The translations under genes and the position numbers were made by a program. Positions 5,417 through 17,825 of a stretch of 64,000 nt of DNA are shown here, in pieces (position 1 is the first letter of the stretch; each line of letters starts with the position of its first letter). Source of the DNA: an uncultured Pseudomonadota bacterium (GTDB lineage Bacteria; Pseudomonadota; Alphaproteobacteria; Rs-D84); contig CASETE010000006.1 in NCBI GenBank assembly GCA_949290785.1, positions 1 through 64,000 on the forward strand, given 5' to 3'. The notes below the pieces were generated by a model. That model was not told the origin of the DNA, did not search any database, and saw only the letters and a program-made list of their open reading frames with translations.

Positions 5417-7405
5417 GTGAATAAAAAAATATTTGATCTTGAAAGTAGTTATAAACCTATGGGTGATCAACCACAGGCTATTTCTGAACTTGTCTCTGGC
5501 GTTCGCGAGGGCAGGCGCAGTCAGGTTTTGCTTGGGGTTACTGGATCAGGTAAAACGTTTACGATGGCCAACGTCATCGCCGAATTAGGAAGACCTGCCT
5601 TGATTATGGCGCCAAATAAAATTCTGGCCGCACAGTTGTATACGGAAATGAAAGGTTTTTTCCCAAGAAATCATATTGAGTATTTTGTATCTTATTATGA
5701 TTATTATCAACCAGAGGCATATCTGCCTACAACCGACACATATATTGATAAAGACGCGTCTATTAACGAGCAACTTGACCGCATGCGTCATAGTGCAACG
5801 CGTGCAATGCTGGAAGAACGAGATGTCGTTGTCGTTTCTTCGGTGTCTTCTATTTATGGTATGGGGTCGCCAGAACAATACGCTGGCATGAAGTTAGTTC
5901 TGCATGCCGGGGATAAAATTAGCATGGCAGATGTAATGCATTCTTTGGTGGATATTCAATATAAACGTAATGATATGAATTTTGAACGTGGAACCTTTCG
6001 TGTCAGGGGGGATACTTTGGATTTATTCCCGTCACATTCGCAGGATAGGGCTTGGAAATTGTCTTTTTGGGGCGATGAAATAGAAGAAATATGGGAATTT
6101 GATACACTGACAGGTGCCAAATTACAAAAATTGGACAGAGTTGCAATATACCCGAATACGCATTATGCTACACCGATGCCTTCAATTTTGCAGGCCATAG
6201 GACAAATAAAAAAAGACCTAAAAGAACGTTTGGAATATTTCCATGAAAATATGAAATATATAGAAGAACAGCGTCTGCGTGAACGCGTTAATTTTGATAT
6301 TGAAATGATGGAGTCTACTGGTACGTGTCGCGGCATTGAAAATTATTCTAGGTATTTATCTGGCAGATTACCCGGACAACCGCCACCGACTTTGTTTGAA
6401 TATTTACCAAAAGATGCGGTTTTGTTTATTGATGAAAGTCATGTGACTGTGCCACAGATTTCTGCTATGTCACGCGGGGATAGGGCGCGAAAGGAAACCT
6501 TGTCGCAATATGGTTTCAGGCTGCCGGCGTGCATAGATAACAGACCGCTTACTTTTGAAGAATGGGATTCTTTACGTCCACAGACTATATTCGTATCGGC
6601 AACGCCCGCAGAATGGGAACTAAAACAATCTGGGGGTATCGTTTCAGAACAGGTAATTAGGCCAACCGGGTTATTAGACCCCGTGTGTGAAGTGCGACCA
6701 ACCGCCCATCAGGTAGATGATTTGTTGGACGAAGTAAAAAATATAAAGGGTAGGGTATTGGTAACCACTCTGACAAAAAAAATGGCGGAACAATTAACGG
6801 ACTATTTCGTTGAAAACGGCGTAAAGGCTAAATACCTGCACAGTGATATTGAAACTTTGGAAAGAATAGAGTTGCTGCGTGACTTACGATTGGGTAAATT
6901 TGATGTGTTAGTTGGTATAAACTTATTACGTGAAGGTTTGGATGTTCCAGAATGTGAATTGGTTGCCATTATGGATGCCGATAAAGAAGGATTTTTGCGT
7001 TCTACGCGTTCTTTGATTCAGACAATAGGGCGCGCGGCAAGAAATGCAAACGGCAGGGTTATTTTATACGCTGATAAAATAACAGATTCTATGCGCGATG
7101 CGCTGGACGAGACAAATAGACGTCGCGAAAAACAAATGGCGTATAACAAGGAACATAATATAACGCCAAAAACCGTTACAAAAGCAGTATTTGCAGAGGT
7201 TACAGATAAAGATGAAAAGGTTGATAAAAGAAAACGATTTGTTTATACTGTTGATGGCGTAATGGATGCGGAAACTTTGCGTAAAGAAATTAAAAAATTG
7301 ACCAAGAAAATGCGCGAAGCAGCAGAAAATCTTGAATTTGAAACGGCCGCTGATTTACGTGATGCAATCCATAAACTAGAAGATGATTTGTTGTTGTTGG
7401 AGTAG
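5417..7405 (+). CDS. uvrB: UvrABC excinuclease subunit B
   Basis: Damage-verifying helicase-like subunit of nucleotide excision repair; 662 residues, normal length. Walker [11 protein letters not shown] at about residue 40, the beta-hairpin with the [12 protein letters not shown] tyrosines at about 95-106 that clamps DNA, helicase motifs through [13 protein letters not shown], and a C-terminal UVR domain (about 620-660) that contacts UvrC. It starts with GTG; the N-terminus aligns with the family ([11 protein letters not shown]), and a -10 box lies 7 nt upstream in place of an SD. tsaE follows after 2 bases and is probably co-transcribed. Confidence 0.97.
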
Positions 7406-7407
7406 AT

Positions 7408-7818
7408 ATGAATAACGAATTTATAACAAAGACAGTTTCAGAAACTCGTAATTGGGCAAAAGATTTTGCCAGGACGTTAAGCGCGCCTGTAACTGTTGCT
7501 TTACATGGCGATTTAGGAATGGGAAAGTCAGAAATTGCGCGCACTATAATTCAAACCTTGCGTGGAGAAGATACAGTTGTTCCAAGTCCAACTTTTACAA
7601 TTGTTCAAAATTATGATGGAATATCTCATTTTGATTTATACAGAATAGAGGATAAATCTGAATTAACAGAAATTGGGTTGCCGTACGCAATTGCAAACGA
7701 TATCACGTTGATTGAGTGGCCAGATATTGCAAACGATATTTTACCAAAAAATACAGTACACATTTATATAACTGAATATGAAAACGGGCGTAAAATTATT
7801 TTAAAACAGAACGTCTAA
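7408..7818 (+). CDS. tsaE: tRNA threonylcarbamoyladenosine biosynthesis ATPase TsaE
   Basis: Small P-loop ATPase needed with TsaB/TsaD/TsaC for the t6A37 modification of ANN-decoding tRNAs. 136 residues; Walker A GDLGMGKSEIARTI at about residue 34, the SPTFTIVQNY signature, HFDLYRIED, and the LIEWPD segment typical of the family. The Walker A threonine is replaced by serine, which is tolerated. It starts 2 bases after uvrB; the SD is inside the uvrB 3' end, suggesting translational coupling. Confidence 0.93.
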   Translation: MNNEFITKTVSETRNWAKDFARTLSAPVTVALHGDLGMGKSEIARTIIQTLRGEDTVVPSPTFTIVQNYDGISHFDLYRIEDKSELTEIGLPYAIANDITLIEWPDIANDILPKNTVHIYITEYENGRKIILKQNV

Positions 7819-7831
7819 GAAATCATTCTTG

Positions 7832-8002
7832 TTGTAAAAATTGTATATTCGCTTCATATTATAAGTGGTTGCTACAACAACCCGGGACGTATTAAAATAA
7901 TCTACTAACATTATGCTGATGCGTCTACTTTCTTAGTTTTTCGAAAAAACATCCCTATTGGATTCGAAAACAAAAAAGACCCGTTTATAGCGGGTCTTTT
8001 TT
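7832..8002 (+). ncRNA. candidate small RNA transcription unit between tsaE and the ftsA-rpe fusion
   Basis: About 180 bases without a gene, but with ordered structure. A weak promoter (TTGTAA at 7832-7837, TATTAT at 7857-7862, 19-nt spacer) would start an RNA near 7867. Three hairpins follow: GGTTG/CAACC (7867-7882); a long two-part hairpin (7886-7891/7920-7925 with inner 7897-7901/7910-7914); and GTTTTTCGAA/TTCGAAAAC (7936-7971). It ends with a strong terminator (7972-8002). I do not recognise tmRNA, 6S, SRP RNA or RNase P signatures. It could instead be a structured 3' UTR of tsaE. Confidence 0.35.
7972..8002. terminator. bidirectional Rho-independent terminator
   Basis: AAAAAAGACCCG/CGGGTCTTTTTT with a 7-nt loop. 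On the minus strand it overlaps the stop codon of the ftsA-rpe fusion; on the plus strand it ends the tsaE/small-RNA region. Confidence 0.88.
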
Positions 8003-9776
8003 ATTTTGGTTGTTTTAATAATTTTTGAACGGCGATGGGAAAATCGCGACTTTTTGCTAAGTATGAACCGCAGACCAATAAATCGGCGCCGGCATCCCAG
8101 CACTTTTTTGCGGTTTCTGGATTTATGCCGCCGTCAACTGAGATTGTATATTTTAAACCATATTTCTTTCTCGTTGCTGAAAGAATGGAAATTTTCTTTA
8201 AACAAGATTCATTAAATGATTGTCCGGCTGCACCCGGTTGTACCGTCATTATCATAATCTCGTCAATTTCACGTAAAATGGGTTTTAATATTTCAACAGA
8301 CGAGTCTGGATTAAGGGCAACGCCAGCGCGACGAGATGCAGACTTTATTAAACGTAACGCGTCTCGTAATCCAGAAGTGTTAGTTGAAACGATTATTGTA
8401 TCTGCGCCTGCGCTAATTGCGTCTTGGGCCCAAACAGCAGGACTTTCGGTCATAAGGTGTACATGCAAATGCGCGTCTGTGTGGGAACGTATGTATTTTA
8501 ATTCGTTTATACTGCCAGCTATTCTATCAACGTAAAAACCGTCCATGATGTCCACGTGAATCATTGATATGCCACCGGATTTGAATAATGAATATGTAGC
8601 AGGATTTTTCATATTAAAGCATAATGTACTTGGCAAAATCGGTATAAAAAACTGTCGCTTTTTATTACGCTTTTTAAATAGTGAATTTATCTTTTGACTC
8701 ACATGTCCCCATCTTTGTTTTCTGGCAATATATGATTGGCGGTGTTCAGATTCGCAATCCCAAACATAAGAAGATAATGCGCGAACCGTTGCATCAGAAT
8801 GTATATTTTTTACGGGTATGTTAAAAGCGTTTTCTATGAATTCAGACATAGATTCAATATTTGCACCGCCGCCGGTTATTATTATCTGTACAGGACGATA
8901 CTTTGAAAACGCGTTCGTACATTTTTCTTTTATTTCTGCAATTATATCCACGACGTGCGGTAAAATGATATCGTTTACATCCGCGCGAGAAAATTCATAA
9001 GCTGTATCTGCCGGCGTAAATCGGTCCATTTCTTTCGGCATTAAACTGGATACATTACGTTTTATACGTTCGGCTTCGTCAAAATCTATGTTTAATTGTT
9101 TTGAGATGTCTAAACTTATATTCGTTCCGCCGTGCTCTAATTTTTCATACCATACGGGACCACGGTCTGTCCAAATGGATGCGCTTGTGAATTGTGCGCC
9201 AAAATCTATAAATAAAGTGTTTTGTTTTGGTTTACGAAAACTTGCGTTTAGTAAATATTGCGGGTCATATAATGCGTCAGATTGAATATGTGCCCGACGT
9301 AACGTGGAAAACATCTTATCCAATTCGGATTTGCCATAAAAAATAGCGCCAAATGCAGAAATTAACTGTCTGTCTGTGTGACCAATTGGTGAAAACATGT
9401 TTCTTGCACTGGGCGTGTCGTAGCGTAGCGGTATTATATGTATAGGATAAAAGTTTTCGGGACCCGTAATTTGAGCAATTTGGTTTTTTATGTCCGATGT
9501 GCTTATTTTGTGTTCGTTGTTCCATGTCGTGCTTTTTGCCACCATTTCAAAAAAAACACGACCAAAATTACCTGTTATATAGGCAGAGTCAAAATGAGAA
9601 CCTATTTGACGTTCTAATTCGTCAATTGCCGATTTTAACGCAAAAACCGTATCAAAACTATCTACTGCATATACAGCAGAACGGTCTATTTGCCCAGAGC
9701 GAACACGGTGTGCAATCCCGCGTACGCCGCTGGTACCTATATCAAGACATAAAAAAGACGAATCAAATAAGTTCAT
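8001..9776 (-). CDS. FtsA-Rpe fusion: cell-division actin joined to ribulose-phosphate 3-epimerase
   Basis: One uninterrupted 591-residue frame with two unrelated domains. Residues 1-370 are FtsA, the actin-like protein that anchors FtsZ: phosphate 1 motif CLDIGTSGVRGIA (10-22), phosphate 2 DFGAQFTSASIWTDRG (191-206), adenosine motif IIITGGGANIESM (298-310), and a basic amphipathic helix (VSQKINSLFKKR, 359-370) like the FtsA membrane-targeting tail. Residues 376-591 are Rpe, a pentose-phosphate TIM barrel: LPST (381), HVDIMDG (407-413), HLM (440-442), GVALNP, a PGAAGQSF phosphate loop and VDGGINPET, with the expected His and Asp metal ligands present. It follows ftsQ by 15 bases; ftsZ is not next to it. 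No start codon for a separate Rpe exists near the junction in any frame. Confidence 0.88.
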   Translation of the reverse strand: MNLFDSSFLCLDIGTSGVRGIAHRVRSGQIDRSAVYAVDSFDTVFALKSAIDELERQIGSHFDSAYITGNFGRVFFEMVAKSTTWNNEHKISTSDIKNQIAQITGPENFYPIHIIPLRYDTPSARNMFSPIGHTDRQLISAFGAIFYGKSELDKMFSTLRRAHIQSDALYDPQYLLNASFRKPKQNTLFIDFGAQFTSASIWTDRGPVWYEKLEHGGTNISLDISKQLNIDFDEAERIKRNVSSLMPKEMDRFTPADTAYEFSRADVNDIILPHVVDIIAEIKEKCTNAFSKYRPVQIIITGGGANIESMSEFIENAFNIPVKNIHSDATVRALSSYVWDCESEHRQSYIARKQRWGHVSQKINSLFKKRNKKRQFFIPILPSTLCFNMKNPATYSLFKSGGISMIHVDIMDGFYVDRIAGSINELKYIRSHTDAHLHVHLMTESPAVWAQDAISAGADTIIVSTNTSGLRDALRLIKSASRRAGVALNPDSSVEILKPILREIDEIMIMTVQPGAAGQSFNESCLKKISILSATRKKYGLKYTISVDGGINPETAKKCWDAGADLLVCGSYLAKSRDFPIAVQKLLKQPK

Positions 9777-9791
9777 GCTTCATCATATAAT

Positions 9792-10472
9792 TTATTTAAC
9801 TAGAATTCTTGCGTTGTCACGCAAATCAAGAATTTCTATTTTCTTTGATAGTATTTTATGATTGTTATTTAATACAATTAATGCACCAATCGCGTCGGTT
9901 GGATTTTTTTCGGGTAGTAATATGGTTATACCACCAGTTGTATGTATGTTCCAACGACGATTTTCTACCCATTCCATATAATCTAAGTCCGCCAGTAAAT
10001 TATGGGCTGCTTTCGTTATTTCCGATATGTCGTTAGGTACAGATCCACGAAATACAACAGTGCCTTCGTCTCGTTCTGCGTTTGGTTGATTTACAATCGT
10101 TCCATCGGCAGATAGCGGAAAGTAATGTTCACCGTCTGTCCACAATGCAACAGCCTTGTATAATTCTACCTTTACAGATAGGCTTCCGTTCGGTCTTCTG
10201 TGTACGGCAGATTCTTTAACGCCAGGAACGGCGTTTATTCTTTCGTTTATTTCCGACAAATTTATATCAAACGTTTTGGTGCCTGGGGCAACCGCTGCTG
10301 CTGCTGCCAGAGCCGTTAAATCTTTGCCAGATGCATCAGTTGTTATAGATATATTGCGAATATACGCGTTTTTACCATATCCCATATATGTCATTATAAT
10401 TCGCGATGCAAAGTATATCGCAAATAATACAGCGAATATGAAATATAACCAAAACCATAAATTTCGTTTCAT
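9792..10472 (-). CDS. ftsQ: cell division protein FtsQ
   Basis: Bitopic divisome protein that recruits and regulates septal synthesis through FtsB/FtsL. 226 residues: N-terminal membrane helix at about 6-25, then a POTRA domain (YIRNISITTDASG through INAVPGVKESAVHRRPNGSL, about 37-105) and the beta domain ending KKIEILDLRDNARILVK. Short but within the family range. Upstream of the ftsA fusion by 15 bases, preserving a fragment of the dcw cluster. A TATAAT box sits 7 nt before the ATG and there is no SD, so the mRNA is probably leaderless. Confidence 0.88.
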   Translation of the reverse strand: MKRNLWFWLYFIFAVLFAIYFASRIIMTYMGYGKNAYIRNISITTDASGKDLTALAAAAAVAPGTKTFDINLSEINERINAVPGVKESAVHRRPNGSLSVKVELYKAVALWTDGEHYFPLSADGTIVNQPNAERDEGTVVFRGSVPNDISEITKAAHNLLADLDYMEWVENRRWNIHTTGGITILLPEKNPTDAIGALIVLNNNHKILSKKIEILDLRDNARILVK

Positions 10473-10979: not shown

Positions 10980-11306
10980 ATGGCAATAACAGTTCAAAAC
11001 TTTATTAAGTTGGCAAATTTTTATAATCAAATGGCAATGATGATGTCTGCTATTTGCGTCGAGAAGGGCGGTATTGCCATGGAAAATTATGTGGGACGTT
11101 TTTTTGCAGCCGATACGTTGGAATTCGTTTATGAATATGGACGCAGATTAATGGCTGATAAGTCTATTACTGTACCAGCAGAAGTTGTGGCGGTGATAAA
11201 GAAGTTTGAGGAAAGATATAAAAAAGTTCAAAACTTAACTACGCCAACACAAAAACCTATATATGAAATGACTCTTGAAGAATTTGAAAGAGTTATGAAT
11301 ATTTGA
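10980..11306 (+). CDS. hypothetical protein, 108 aa
   Basis: ATG at 10980 with SD AGGATAGAG upstream. The predicted protein is helical and soluble with a methionine-rich N-terminal third (NQMAMMMSAICVEKGGIAME) and an acidic end. No signal peptide is apparent and no family is recognised. It precedes the secretin-like lipoprotein gene by 36 bases on the same strand and may be co-transcribed with it, which would be the only hint of function. Confidence 0.65.
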   Translation: MAITVQNFIKLANFYNQMAMMMSAICVEKGGIAMENYVGRFFAADTLEFVYEYGRRLMADKSITVPAEVVAVIKKFEERYKKVQNLTTPTQKPIYEMTLEEFERVMNI

Positions 11307-11342
11307 TATCGTGATATAAACGAAAAGAAGAGAAAGGAAAAT

Positions 11343-12671
11343 ATGATGATATTCAAAAAAATGTTTGCTTTGATTGCATTAGGCTTTTTAGCAAGTTGTG
11401 CAAATCAAAACCAGCAAACGCAACAACCACAATACGATACTATTAATGTAGTAGAAAATTTTGTTATTGATGAAAATTCTGTTCCTATCTTTCCTAAGAA
11501 AGCCGCGTTAACAACAGATACGGCACGAAGGTTTTCTATTGATTTGCCCAAAAGGTGCGAAGTGAATTGGGATAATCAAACGGTGATATCGGTCGTGCCA
11601 GAAGAAAAAATAGAAATCGTGCGTTTGGGGGTAGGCGACGATTTGCCAGAATTAAACGTTTCTGATTACGACTTTAAACAGTTAACCGTAAAACAGGCTT
11701 TGGATAAATTGCTGGATGGTACAGATATATCTGTGGTTGAAGATGAAGAAGTAATAGAAAAAATTTCAGGCTCTATTTCGTCCGGCAGTTTGTCTGATGC
11801 CGTTGAACTGATGGCAAAAATGGGGCGGGTTTATTATTCTTATGATGCTGTTGCCGGCGAAATTCACTTAAATCATCGTGCAAAGTGGATGGTAAAAATG
11901 CCAAAAGATGAAAATATTGTTATGGCATTATTAGATGCTATGCATGGTGCCGATATGCGTAATTTGTTGGTAGACTGGCAAGATAAAACAGTTGTCTTTG
12001 AAGGTAATTATCAGACAGAACGGGAAGTGGCAAAAATAATTTCCGATATTGCTTCAAAGAAATATATGTTAGCCTGGGATATCGATGTATATCGCGTATA
12101 TCCTCGTACGGACAACCCGATTATATGGATGAACTTGTTGCCGGCGTTCGGTGATAATAATATAAAAATGTCAATTCCTGGTATTGTCGGGCGCGCGTTG
12201 GTCGTAAGTCCTGAAATTAATACTAAGACACTGCAAGAATTCTTATCGCAGCAAGCGAACGTTGTTTTGATATCTCAAGGGCGTTTCGTCATTCCTAATG
12301 GTTGGCAGTCGCGCTTTGATATCGGACAATGTAGTAAAGAAGATAGGTTGGAAACCGATTTGATTATAGGGGCAACGGGTAAATACGGCGATTTCGGCGG
12401 TCGGGATAAGATTGACGCAAAGATAGTACTGCGTACAAGCAACGGTGAACTGTCTTCGTTTAACATCCCGTCAAGTATCGGCGATAATTATATAATAATA
12501 GGTATTCCGACGCACTCGTTCGTAACTACGCCGGAAACTTTGATAAGCCCGTTCGCGGAATTAGTTGTGTTTATGTCACCACGAATCATATCAATAGTTG
12601 ATGCAGAAAAGTCAAGCAATTCACAAGTGCCGCTTGCAGGTGATGCGTTGCGCGATTTTTTAAGAGAATAA
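11343..12671 (+). CDS. secretin-like lipoprotein (PilN/GspD-type domains)
   Basis: 442 residues with a lipoprotein signal peptide (lipobox LASC, Cys19). A secretin N0/STN-like region lies at about 90-190 (VKQALDKLLDGTDISVV and a later IHLNHRAKWMV). The C-terminal 110 residues resemble the secretin core, ending with ELVVFMSPRIISIVD, close to the usual ELV(I/V)(L/F)ITPRIV ending. Lipidation and domain order fit an outer-membrane secretin such as PilN of type IVB pili, but no pilus or type II secretion genes lie nearby and the central region is divergent. Calling it a pore former is inference. SD AAAGGAAA. The lolC/E-type gene follows after 28 bases. Confidence 0.6.
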   Translation: MMIFKKMFALIALGFLASCANQNQQTQQPQYDTINVVENFVIDENSVPIFPKKAALTTDTARRFSIDLPKRCEVNWDNQTVISVVPEEKIEIVRLGVGDDLPELNVSDYDFKQLTVKQALDKLLDGTDISVVEDEEVIEKISGSISSGSLSDAVELMAKMGRVYYSYDAVAGEIHLNHRAKWMVKMPKDENIVMALLDAMHGADMRNLLVDWQDKTVVFEGNYQTEREVAKIISDIASKKYMLAWDIDVYRVYPRTDNPIIWMNLLPAFGDNNIKMSIPGIVGRALVVSPEINTKTLQEFLSQQANVVLISQGRFVIPNGWQSRFDIGQCSKEDRLETDLIIGATGKYGDFGGRDKIDAKIVLRTSNGELSSFNIPSSIGDNYIIIGIPTHSFVTTPETLISPFAELVVFMSPRIISIVDAEKSSNSQVPLAGDALRDFLRE

Positions 12672-14703: not shown

Positions 14704-15312
14704 ATGAAACAAGTCATCGTAAAAGAACAGAAAAAAAGCGGATTTTGGAAAAAATTCTTTTGTGTTATAGCGTTAATTTTATTGTTTTGTTTAGGGGGAT
14801 TTTTAGGATTTATGTACAATAATGATTTCTTTAATTCTAAAAAATTAACGCCTCAAGAATGTGACGCTGTTGCACAAGAAATTGTCGATATCACCAAAAC
14901 AGGCGCAACGCAAGAGAATGTGGATAAATTACGTCAATTAAACGAGACTTATTCAAACGGTTGTGCGGGTAGGTTAGTCATTATTGATAATGAAAAAAAA
15001 CAAAAAAGTTCTTGCCAGGTGACAGAAGATATTTTGTTGCAAAAACTATTTCCAGAAAACAGCCCTAATTTCGTGGCGCATTTATATAATTCAATGATTT
15101 ATAATAAGTTGGCGTATGCTGGGTGTTCTAACAAGTCAGAATATTATGCGGGTTTAGCGCAGCAAGAGCAAATGAATGCAAAATTATTACAACCAGGTTA
15201 TGACGAACAAAAAGTCCAATATGTTTTAAGGGTTTTTATAGAATCTGATATGCATAACGATACTAAACAATTTTTAAACGCTTTACAAAGTTCCGATATT
15301 TTGGAAAAATAA
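14704..15312 (+). CDS. membrane-anchored cysteine-module protein 1
   Basis: 202 residues, no named family recognised. Basic N-terminus and one membrane helix (about 17-38), placing the rest in the periplasm. Two cysteine-pair modules follow. Module A is C53-C87 (QECDAVAQEI through YSNGCAGRLVI), almost the same as in the next gene with identical 34-residue spacing. Module B is C104-C141 (CQVTEDILL through AYAGC), 37 residues apart, shared with the genes at 15334 and 16950. The even cysteine number and conserved spacing suggest disulfides. First of five genes in an apparent operon after lolD; SD AGGAAG. Confidence 0.75.
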   Translation: MKQVIVKEQKKSGFWKKFFCVIALILLFCLGGFLGFMYNNDFFNSKKLTPQECDAVAQEIVDITKTGATQENVDKLRQLNETYSNGCAGRLVIIDNEKKQKSSCQVTEDILLQKLFPENSPNFVAHLYNSMIYNKLAYAGCSNKSEYYAGLAQQEQMNAKLLQPGYDEQKVQYVLRVFIESDMHNDTKQFLNALQSSDILEK

Positions 15313-15333
15313 GAATATAACAAGGGGGGATAA

Positions 15334-16014
15334 ATGAAAACTTTATCAAAAAATACCGTGAATAACCAAAACGTTTGTAAATGCAGCAGATCACATAAGA
15401 TATGGTCGGTTGTTGCATTGGCAGGGTTGTTTGCTTGTGGTTTATTTGTTGGATTAGGATTCAAAAGTGCCGATAAAAAAATCATGATGGGCGCACAAGA
15501 ATGTGACGCAGTTGCACAAGAAATTTTTAACCTGACAGTTGCAGGCGTTAATGAAGAAAATATTAATACGTTGCGTGATTTAAATAAAGCATATGAAAAC
15601 GGATGTCAGGGACGCGTTGTCATTTTTGAACGCGACGCTGTCGCACAAAATAATTCTGAACAAAATGACATATTATCAACTTGCGTTCGTATAGAACAAT
15701 TGTTGAAAACGAGATTAAGACCAGAAGATTCTATGGATTATTTTGTACATATGAACAATGCGGATACGTATGCCACTTTGTATGAAAAGGGATGCGCAGA
15801 AAACGCCGAAATGTATAGGTCTATGACGGTGAGAGAGATGTCTATTGCGGATGCAATAGGTGACGGCAGATCACAGTTAGATTTGAATAGATTTATGAAT
15901 CTGTATGACAGAATAGATATGCCGGAAGAAGCCGAGGTATTTAGAAAAAAGATAAAAGAAAATCCTTATTATTTAGATATAACTTCTGAACTGATAGAAG
16001 TTAAATATGAATAA
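15334..16014 (+). CDS. membrane-anchored cysteine-module protein 2
   Basis: 226 residues, paralogue of the preceding gene. One membrane helix at about 24-44, then module A (C57-C91, QECDAVAQEIFNLT to YENGCQGRVVI) and module B (C117-C154, CVRIEQLLK to LYEKGCAENAEMY), with the same spacings as protein 1. The C-terminal 70 residues are charged and helical. The N-terminal cytoplasmic tail carries its own CKC pair. Strong SD (AAGGGGGGA). Its stop overlaps the next start by 8 bases, so translation is probably coupled. Function unknown; periplasmic interaction module is inference. Confidence 0.75.
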   Translation: MKTLSKNTVNNQNVCKCSRSHKIWSVVALAGLFACGLFVGLGFKSADKKIMMGAQECDAVAQEIFNLTVAGVNEENINTLRDLNKAYENGCQGRVVIFERDAVAQNNSEQNDILSTCVRIEQLLKTRLRPEDSMDYFVHMNNADTYATLYEKGCAENAEMYRSMTVREMSIADAIGDGRSQLDLNRFMNLYDRIDMPEEAEVFRKKIKENPYYLDITSELIEVKYE

Positions 16015-16687
16015 AGCGAAAGTTTGTCTTTTTATAGGTGCGATTTTAATGTGTCTGCAAATGTTTGACGCAAGCATGACTTTTGCAACTGCAAATAATG
16101 TTGCAGAACGCATGGATTGCCCGACTATGCAGCAGAAAATATCAGAACTATCTGCGGTTGAGAATCCTGATGATAAAGTATCTGCAGAATTAAAATCTTT
16201 GCAAGAAAGATATCGTAAAGATTGTTCTAAAAGTATTGCCGGACGTAAAACTTCGACATCTGGTCGGGCAACTGTTACCCCCGTTCCTGTTGCCCAGCCA
16301 GCAGAAGATGTTCAGACCGTAGAGGTTAAAACCGCAACAGAAGTATTAAATGAATATTTATCTAAGAAAAATCAAAATTGTAAAGATTTACAAAAATCTA
16401 TGGAGGTAGCCACCGGCAGCACAGAAGAAAAAGCAATGTTGCAGAATCAATATGACGCAGATTGTGCCGTTGAGGAAAACGATGCTGTCGAAGATATAGA
16501 AGTGGTAGATGAAGAGCAGGTCGCCGCAAATATAGAAGCGGGTCTCTGCGCAGATGGAAGTAAACCTAATCGCTTTGGTTGCTGTCAGGGTGAAACGTTC
16601 AAGGATTTGGGGAACTTGATTTTTGCTTGTTGCCCAGACGATGGCGGTGATTGTTATCCGCCGATAACTACGGGTGATGCATTATGA
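16007..16687 (+). CDS. exported cysteine-module protein 3 with C-terminal six-cysteine motif
   Basis: 226 residues. The N-terminal hydrophobic stretch (about 5-28, ending FATA) looks like a cleavable signal peptide. Two degenerate A-type modules follow (C38-C73 and C125-C153), separated by a threonine/proline-rich linker, then an acidic stretch. The last 40 residues carry a six-cysteine motif (C181, C192-C193, C208-C209, C216; CADG, GCCQGE, ACCPDD, CYPPI) with exactly the spacing found in the next gene. Start and stop both overlap neighbours (8 and 4 bases). No known family recognised. Confidence 0.72.
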   Translation: MNKAKVCLFIGAILMCLQMFDASMTFATANNVAERMDCPTMQQKISELSAVENPDDKVSAELKSLQERYRKDCSKSIAGRKTSTSGRATVTPVPVAQPAEDVQTVEVKTATEVLNEYLSKKNQNCKDLQKSMEVATGSTEEKAMLQNQYDADCAVEENDAVEDIEVVDEEQVAANIEAGLCADGSKPNRFGCCQGETFKDLGNLIFACCPDDGGDCYPPITTGDAL

Positions 16688-16935
16688 AAATAACAGTTTC
16701 GCAAAAGTATTTACTGTTTTTGTTGTTGGGAATAGTAATAGGTTGGGGGGCAACGTTGTTATGGCAAAATGTTGCTGAATATTCTCTTACAAACACAAGC
16801 GATGTTGTTTGTCCTGATGGAAACGCGCCTGATAAGAATGGTTGTTGCGCGGGCGAGGTTTTTACAGATATGGGGGACCTAGGTTTTAACTGTTGCCCTG
16901 AAAATGGTGACAGTTGCTTTCCGCCAATTAAATAA
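16684..16935 (+). CDS. small membrane-anchored six-cysteine protein
   Basis: 83 residues: a hydrophobic N-terminal helix (about 7-26) and a compact extracytoplasmic tail that is almost only the six-cysteine motif (C43, C54-C55, C70-C71, C78; CPDG, GCCAGE, NCCPENG, CFPPI). Inter-cysteine spacings of 11, 15 and 7 match those at the C-terminus of the preceding protein. Three disulfides or a metal site are both possible. ATGA overlap with the upstream gene implies coupled translation. Confidence 0.72.
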   Translation: MKITVSQKYLLFLLLGIVIGWGATLLWQNVAEYSLTNTSDVVCPDGNAPDKNGCCAGEVFTDMGDLGFNCCPENGDSCFPPIK

Positions 16936-16949
16936 TTAAAGGAAATAAA

Positions 16950-17825
16950 ATGGTAAAAGAAAACAAAATTACTGATTCAAAGACAAAAGTTGTTCGTAGG
17001 GGCAGGGTATGGTTTTGGATTATTTTTTGTTTGCTGATTGCGGGGCTGGCTGTTTTTGGTATGTATCAACGCGGTGTGTTTGGTTTGTCTGATAAAGTTG
17101 AAACCCAAGAAATTGTACAAGAAGCACAAAACGTAACAGACGAGATTAACTCGGAAATTGTGCAAACGGTTGATAGTGAGGCTGATGCAGAAATTACAGA
17201 ACCAAAAGACAATGACGAGTCAAAAGATATTGCTGTTGTCCCAGCGTGTAAAGTTATAGAAAATATATTGTTGAAAAATGTTGTTGATGATGAAATGGAT
17301 GTGCCTTATGGACAACTTAATTCGGCGCACATTTATGAAGTTTTAGCAGAAAAGGGTTGTCCGGAAAACTCTAAATTTTTTGCTGATATGGCACTTCGCA
17401 AGAAAGTAATTGCAGAAGCATTGTTAGCACTTGATTACGAAACTAAAAATCCAAGTGAATATTTATATTCAGAAGAAAAAATATGTCAAACCATTGAAAA
17501 CAGATTGATGAGAAATATAGACATAAATGCATATAGTTATAAGGATTTTTTAAATAACGCTAAAAATTATGCTGTATTATATGAATATGGTTGTTGCGAT
17601 AACAAACCGGCATATATGCGTGCCGCTGTTCGTGAACTGGGGGTGGCGGTTGCGTTAATGCCTACGGATAAAATGAGTCGCGATGAAATTGTAACGGTTG
17701 TTGAAATCTGTAAAAGTTTGGGCGTTGCCCAGGCGGCGCATTTGATGTTACAAAGATTAAAGGCTCGTGGTTATGATATGGAATTTTTGATGGAATTAGA
17801 GGCCATCATTCACGGAATAAGGTAA
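16950..17825 (+). CDS. membrane-anchored cysteine-module protein with tandem B modules
   Basis: 291 residues: cytoplasmic basic tail, membrane helix at about 21-39, an acidic low-complexity linker (about 50-95), then two tandem copies of module B: C100-C137 (CKVIENILLKN to AEKGCPENSKFF) and C179-C215 (CQTIENRLMRN to YEYGCCDNKPAY). Each is followed by an A..R(E/K)xxxAxAL helix. The repeat looks like a helical-hairpin scaffold of TPR/Sel1 flavour stapled by a cysteine pair; this is inference. SD AAAGGAAA. Last gene of the cluster; a weak hairpin lies at 17851-17866. Confidence 0.74.
   Translation: MVKENKITDSKTKVVRRGRVWFWIIFCLLIAGLAVFGMYQRGVFGLSDKVETQEIVQEAQNVTDEINSEIVQTVDSEADAEITEPKDNDESKDIAVVPACKVIENILLKNVVDDEMDVPYGQLNSAHIYEVLAEKGCPENSKFFADMALRKKVIAEALLALDYETKNPSEYLYSEEKICQTIENRLMRNIDINAYSYKDFLNNAKNYAVLYEYGCCDNKPAYMRAAVRELGVAVALMPTDKMSRDEIVTVVEICKSLGVAQAAHLMLQRLKARGYDMEFLMELEAIIHGIR

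Follow-up and report, generated by a model that had tools for sequence, protein, structure and literature searches.

An in-frame FtsA-Rpe fusion across a family of alphaproteobacteria in which FtsZ is not detected

The fusion gene and its protein

The window, the whole stretch of 64,000 nucleotides that was analysed (contig CASETE010000006.1, positions 1 to 64,000), carries on its minus strand a single open reading frame of 591 residues (8001..9776; ATG start, TAA stop at 8001-8003) in which an FtsA-type actin domain is joined to ribulose-phosphate 3-epimerase (Rpe). The sequence-only reading had proposed exactly this, and we found that both Pfam and NCBIfam profiles match the frame. Residues 1-345 form the actin domain (8742..9776), residues 346-375 a linker with the fusion junction (8652..8741; the end of a predicted helix with a putative amphipathic segment, then a Lys/Arg-rich stretch), and residues 376-591 a complete TIM barrel (8004..8651), all on the minus strand. 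Directly upstream, in the same orientation and after a gap of 15 bp, lies ftsQ (9792..10472, minus strand; PF03799, E 1.7e-9), which is 58% identical to the gene at the equivalent place in the chromosome OX097180.1. At the other end, tsaE (7408-7818, plus strand) converges with the fusion gene, and between them, where the fusion gene ends, is a palindromic intrinsic terminator (7972..8002; a 14-pair stem with an A-tract and a T-tract), which was detected on the plus strand and could serve both strands. FtsK is encoded elsewhere in the window. Positions 14704-17825 encode several small proteins in a row that look membrane-anchored or secreted and share similar stretches (QECDAVAQEI in two), probably a lineage-specific paralogous array.

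The FtsA half matches PF14450 at residues 189-324 (E 9.5e-13; 49.1 bits, above the gathering score of 31.8), and it matches TIGR01174 over residues 26-324 (E 2.7e-22) with 79.4 bits, below the equivalog cut-off of 175.85. The actin motifs said to precede the epimerase aligned as DIGT, IDFGAQFT and GGGAN, the ATP motifs of an actin domain with a 1C subdomain in place of 1B. An AF2 model of residues 6-341 matched FtsA crystal structures best (Z 32.9 for 7q6f, the V. maritimus double filament), with MreB clearly weaker (about Z 21). The ATP motifs and the 1C domain are kept in most genera of the family. In genus g19 (L225-L228), the first phosphate-loop Asp is replaced (LIIYPG, LYIG, IYFG) and the second is Asn or His; thus, ATP use or hydrolysis may be lost there.

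Compared to FtsA (PF14450; 7q6f, 1e4g, 4a2a), this half is alike in its actin fold with 1C, its ATP motifs, a putative C-terminal amphipathic or basic segment and the place of its gene directly after ftsQ, but it differs in carrying Rpe, in having no FtsZ partner in the genome, in lacking the conserved loop at E. coli FtsA 42-53 and in scoring below the TIGR01174 cut-off. FtsA works through its subdomain 2B, which binds the C-terminal peptide of FtsZ, and this genome is without FtsZ. Since the half passes the Pfam score, falls below the NCBI equivalog score and lacks an FtsZ as binding partner, we call it FtsA-derived. We considered whether its short 2B hairpin shows that FtsZ is no longer bound and rejected this, since the hairpin is equally short in sister family f6, which retains FtsZ.

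The Rpe half matches PF00834 at residues 398-573 (E 1.8e-43; 148.7 bits, gathering score 21.1) and the Rpe subfamily NF004076 (182.2 bits, cut-off 165); its match to TIGR01163 begins at profile position 22 and stays below the equivalog cut-off (153.9 bits; 212.6). The model of residues 377-590 matched S. pyogenes Rpe (2fli) with Z 32.0 and an rmsd of 1.6 Å. Moreover, the His/Asp metal ligands that had been reported for the epimerase are in place, with S383, H407, D409, H440 and D548 aligning with the metal ligands or catalytic residues and the substrate Ser of E. coli Rpe. Judged by Pfam and subfamily score, predicted fold and residues, this half is an Rpe. It has the full TIM barrel and all metal and substrate residues of Rpe (PF00834; 2fli, 1rpx), but unlike them it no longer has a start of its own and follows the FtsA helix and basic linker. 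A search of the window's genome found no second Rpe, as the question of another rpe gene required, and one further PF14450 match, a 365-aa frame on contig 11. This frame is most likely MreB, because the MreB of OX097180.1 scores about equally with PF14450. Thus, the fusion is the sole Rpe of this genome and most likely its sole FtsA.

Both halves are modelled with pLDDT 91, and the pTM of 0.61 leaves their mutual orientation open. Between them, a helix is predicted at 343-367, followed by a disordered basic linker (pLDDT <50 at 368-374). An FtsA-like amphipathic membrane helix had been assigned to residues 359-370; the model helix covers most of this segment, but the hydrophobic moment in the window lies just slightly above that of shuffled sequences (z 0.4). 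Over 81 homologues the mean z is 1.1, with 41 of the 81 more than 1 SD above shuffles, and no clear amphipathic helix is evident in the linker of genus g15. The linker, with a mean identity of 31% over the homologues, shows a basic and putatively amphipathic pattern. As to an internal start for a free Rpe, the sole candidate near the window's junction is the TTG codon of residue 381, which already belongs to the first barrel strand; in 74% of homologues, a start codon stands at this residue. Residues 371-378 include a start codon in 5 of the 81. With no start codon conserved ahead of the first strand, we rejected an internal start, and the earlier statement that free Rpe has no start codon was essentially right.

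Distribution and origin of the fusion

At all 80 loci read from a public genome collection, whose records are uncultured Alphaproteobacteria or Candidatus Enterousia species, a single frame encodes this protein from end to end, and we found the same frame in all 22 other same-genus genomes with a match. An order-wide search extended this to the window's family, f1 (Candidatus Enterousia with about 12 more genera of order Rs-D84), in which 175 of 183 genomes had a match. The f1 matches listed are all single frames of about 590-630 aa with no internal stops, and in the deep genera g15, g16 and g19 both halves lie in one frame of 555-617 aa. In one exception (G183; 61% complete) the halves are on two contigs, and the gene probably just looks split. 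An apparent split by TAA in G015 proved to be the terminal stop. Seven of the eight f1 genomes without a match are less than 90% complete, and the eighth, G122, is 95% complete. Neither a junction indel nor separate genes at the locus, either of which was to refute the fusion, was found anywhere in the family, and we consider it near certain that the fusion itself is real.

Mean identity differs among the parts of the protein (54% in the FtsA half, 73% in the Rpe half and 31% in the linker), but among close relatives dN/dS is low in both halves (about 0.04-0.09 for FtsA; 0.03-0.09 for Rpe), with higher values in the linker. Thus, both halves are maintained by purifying selection. Among the matches listed from 289 genomes sampled across the class, in which fusions would rank first, we saw no fusion outside f1. 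Enterousia has been assigned to the GTDB order and family Rs-D84, in an account that covers metabolism, MreB, RodA and a transaldolase-free pentose phosphate pathway and leaves FtsZ unmentioned (PMC12306168). Our name for the lineage is based on this account and on those matching loci whose records carry a name. Our literature search found no paper that names an FtsA-Rpe fusion or FtsZ loss in Rs-D84, in agreement with the earlier remark that no such fusion was known, and the fusion is apparently undescribed.

In the other Rs-D84 families, ftsA and rpe are separate genes, mostly adjacent. In families f2, f3 and f6 the two genes are neighbours, with 1 to 17 bp shared between their frames (G025 at 11228; G028 at 6224; G031 at 2813-2816; and G024 at 11327-11343, where the start is an upstream one and perhaps not genuine); in f4 they are separated by an ABC-transporter-like gene. 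The fusion is therefore an old pair of genes read through as one, and the loss of a stop codon between such neighbours accounts for it.

FtsZ and the remaining division genes

Bacterial division is organised almost universally by FtsZ. With a profile built from 13 sister FtsZ sequences, we found it in none of 168 f1 genomes (141 of the genus, 97 of them high quality, and 27 from other f1 genera); the few matches in f1 all scored below 14 bits. TIGR00065 and the Pfam tubulin family (PF00091) likewise found it in none of 24 genus genomes, and the same profiles detect FtsZ in other Rs-D84 families and in 13 of 14 control genomes. In OX097180.1, the single-contig chromosome (1,001,484 bp) of Ca. 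E. intestinigallinarum, neither the profile nor an E. coli query recovered FtsZ, and MinC and MinE had no match. We rejected an FtsZ hidden by divergence, given that the best f1 scores with TIGR00065, PF00091 and the 13-sequence profile were under 15 bits over 40-60 residues. We also rejected its loss through binning, because it is absent from the single-contig chromosome and the 97 high-quality genus genomes and is found in other families. The absence of FtsZ in f1 is thus near certain.

Sister families keep ftsZ (L200 8631-10424, L202 9465-10880, L203 9383-11095, L205 9032-11035, L198 6308-8059), and the FtsZ C-termini read in f4 and f6 carry a typical C-terminal peptide (EIPAIFKK, EIPSFLRD). 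In f2, f3 and f4 the gene lies inside a podovirus-like structural gene cluster, near the head-tail adaptor gene; in G024 (f2) it is located elsewhere, outside the cluster. Enterousia keeps this cluster without ftsZ (OX097180.1, 906-918 kb), and the gene near the expected place reads as what we take to be dnaB. The cluster itself (OX097180.1 906804-916621, L185; G032:C4, L200 6169-18466; also G026:C22 in L203, G038:C13 in L202, G029 in L205 and G027 in L214) is common to several Rs-D84 families and comprises major head, head-tail adaptor and tail proteins and a terminase in two ORFs. Its capsid is 65-71% identical between families, and the cluster looks domesticated, possibly as a gene transfer agent. 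In family f5, G027 has at the cluster place just a degenerate FtsZ-like protein of 408 aa (L214:8518-9744, minus strand). This protein scores weakly as FtsZ, lacks the GTP-binding glycine motif and matches no Pfam family above cut-off. The genome also gave no match to FtsA, Rpe or Mur ligase, and it may be an intermediate or a second case of FtsZ loss.

Later division genes remain in f1, according to a list drawn from OX097180.1 and family searches. The chromosome OX097180.1 retains FtsQ, FtsI, FtsW, MreB, MreC, RodA and MrdA, as well as penicillin-binding proteins and, by sequence similarity, MraY and MurG. Mur ligases (PF08245) were found in none of the 24 Enterousia genus genomes (G000-G023) nor in G027, whereas the other Rs-D84 families have 2 to 5 copies. 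Retention of the late peptidoglycan steps without the cytoplasmic ligases suggests precursor import or an unknown route.

Possible roles of the fusion protein

With FtsZ lost, division in f1 may rely instead on a scaffold of the actin type. We propose that a closely coupled ancestral ftsA-rpe pair of Rs-D84 merged into one frame in the f1 ancestor, and that the FtsA half, ATP-bound and held at the membrane by the helix and basic segment, would serve as an FtsZ-independent cytoplasmic scaffold for division. It could polymerise along the cell circumference, as double filaments of FtsA and MreB do, and guide FtsQ, FtsI and FtsW. FtsA is known to form curved, antiparallel, MreB-like double filaments (PMC7613929). 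The Rpe half would stay an active enzyme, the only one of the cell, as a membrane-tethered passenger or a cross-linker. Rpe enzymes are dimers or hexamers, and with one Rpe per FtsA subunit, cross-linking of adjacent filaments, or a setting of their spacing, could follow. In E. coli, FtsA filaments are triggered by FtsN. We give this reading, FtsA filaments as a septal scaffold with Rpe as active passenger or cross-linker, a probability of about 0.48. The loss of the phosphate-loop Asp residues in g19, the linker of g15 without a clear amphipathic helix and the presence of MreB, which could do the division job alone, all count against a scaffold. Moreover, the fusion and the FtsZ loss each occurred once here, so that the link between them comes without independent replication. 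The earlier suggestion that the fusion could tether central metabolism to the divisome is not supported as worded, since it presumes a normal divisome, and FtsZ is not detectable in these genomes.

The main alternative is that FtsA has ceased to be the division scaffold. Division would then be driven by MreB, as has been proposed for Chlamydia, and the FtsA half would be kept as an anchor in the membrane or as a regulator, by which Rpe is held there or connected to FtsQ or FtsW. The retention of MreB, MreC, RodA and MrdA, the implication of MreB in the division of FtsZ-less Chlamydia (PMC7029139), the faster evolution of the FtsA half (54% versus 73% mean identity) and the phosphate-loop substitutions in g19 all fit this view, but the FtsA half has a dN/dS about as low as that of Rpe and keeps its ATP motifs and 1C domain in most genera, and on balance we think it unlikely. 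We consider it less likely again that two products are made, with Rpe freed by site-specific proteolysis or by an internal start of an unusual kind and the fusion serving for co-production of two ordinary proteins from a former operon. In favour of this, the linker is both short and basic, it is poorly conserved, and disorder is predicted for it, the sister-family genes are overlapping and separate, and residue 381 is so often a start codon; against this, a start at 381 would cut off most of the first barrel strand, codons at 371-378 are starts in just the 5 homologues noted above, and no f1 member has reverted to two frames.

An accident of genome reduction, in which loss of a stop codon joined neighbours that each still do their own job and the joining has no function, would suit reduced, gene-dense genomes of 1 Mb in which ftsA and rpe were ancestral neighbours. 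We find it improbable, because the fusion has never been re-broken over about 12 genera, deep branches included, and because, with FtsZ gone, FtsA's own job must have changed. All of the genomes are metagenome-assembled, which leaves room in principle for an artefact of sequencing, assembly or binning, either an indel at the junction or an FtsZ missing from the bins. The same frame in more than 150 assemblies practically refutes the former, and the latter is opposed by the FtsZ results from the single-contig chromosome, the high-quality genomes and the other families.

Returning to the scaffold reading, known FtsZ-less bacteria offer partial parallels. Like the MreB-based Chlamydiae, f1 lacks FtsZ and keeps MreB and late division proteins, judging by its genes; unlike them, it belongs to another phylum, retains FtsA in fused form and has lost the Mur ligases though MraY and MurG are kept. 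FtsZ-less endosymbionts and Mollicutes share with f1 the combination of genome reduction and FtsZ loss, but the Mollicutes have no peptidoglycan wall, whereas f1 keeps FtsA, FtsQ, FtsI, FtsW and FtsK; Rs-D84 is missing from a list of FtsZ-less lineages (PMC4164004).

A clade with FtsA, FtsQ, FtsI and FtsW and without FtsZ isolates what FtsA does alone, and it makes the proposed FtsA/MreB "rudder" idea testable. We know of no FtsZ-less bacterial lineage that has been described as retaining FtsA. Through the fusion, a cytoskeletal protein is naturally linked, across a whole family, to an enzyme of core metabolism, and the fusion may be a ready-made filament cross-linker. More tentatively, and at somewhat less than even odds, walled or partly walled alphaproteobacteria may divide FtsZ-free by means of an FtsA scaffold fused to Rpe, which would cross-link the filaments or let septation sense the supply of pentose phosphates. 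The members of f1 are gut bacteria with tiny genomes, and the fusion and the loss of FtsZ extend to the whole family. This also alters the picture of Ca. Enterousia, a common gut lineage that has so far been described mainly by its metabolism.
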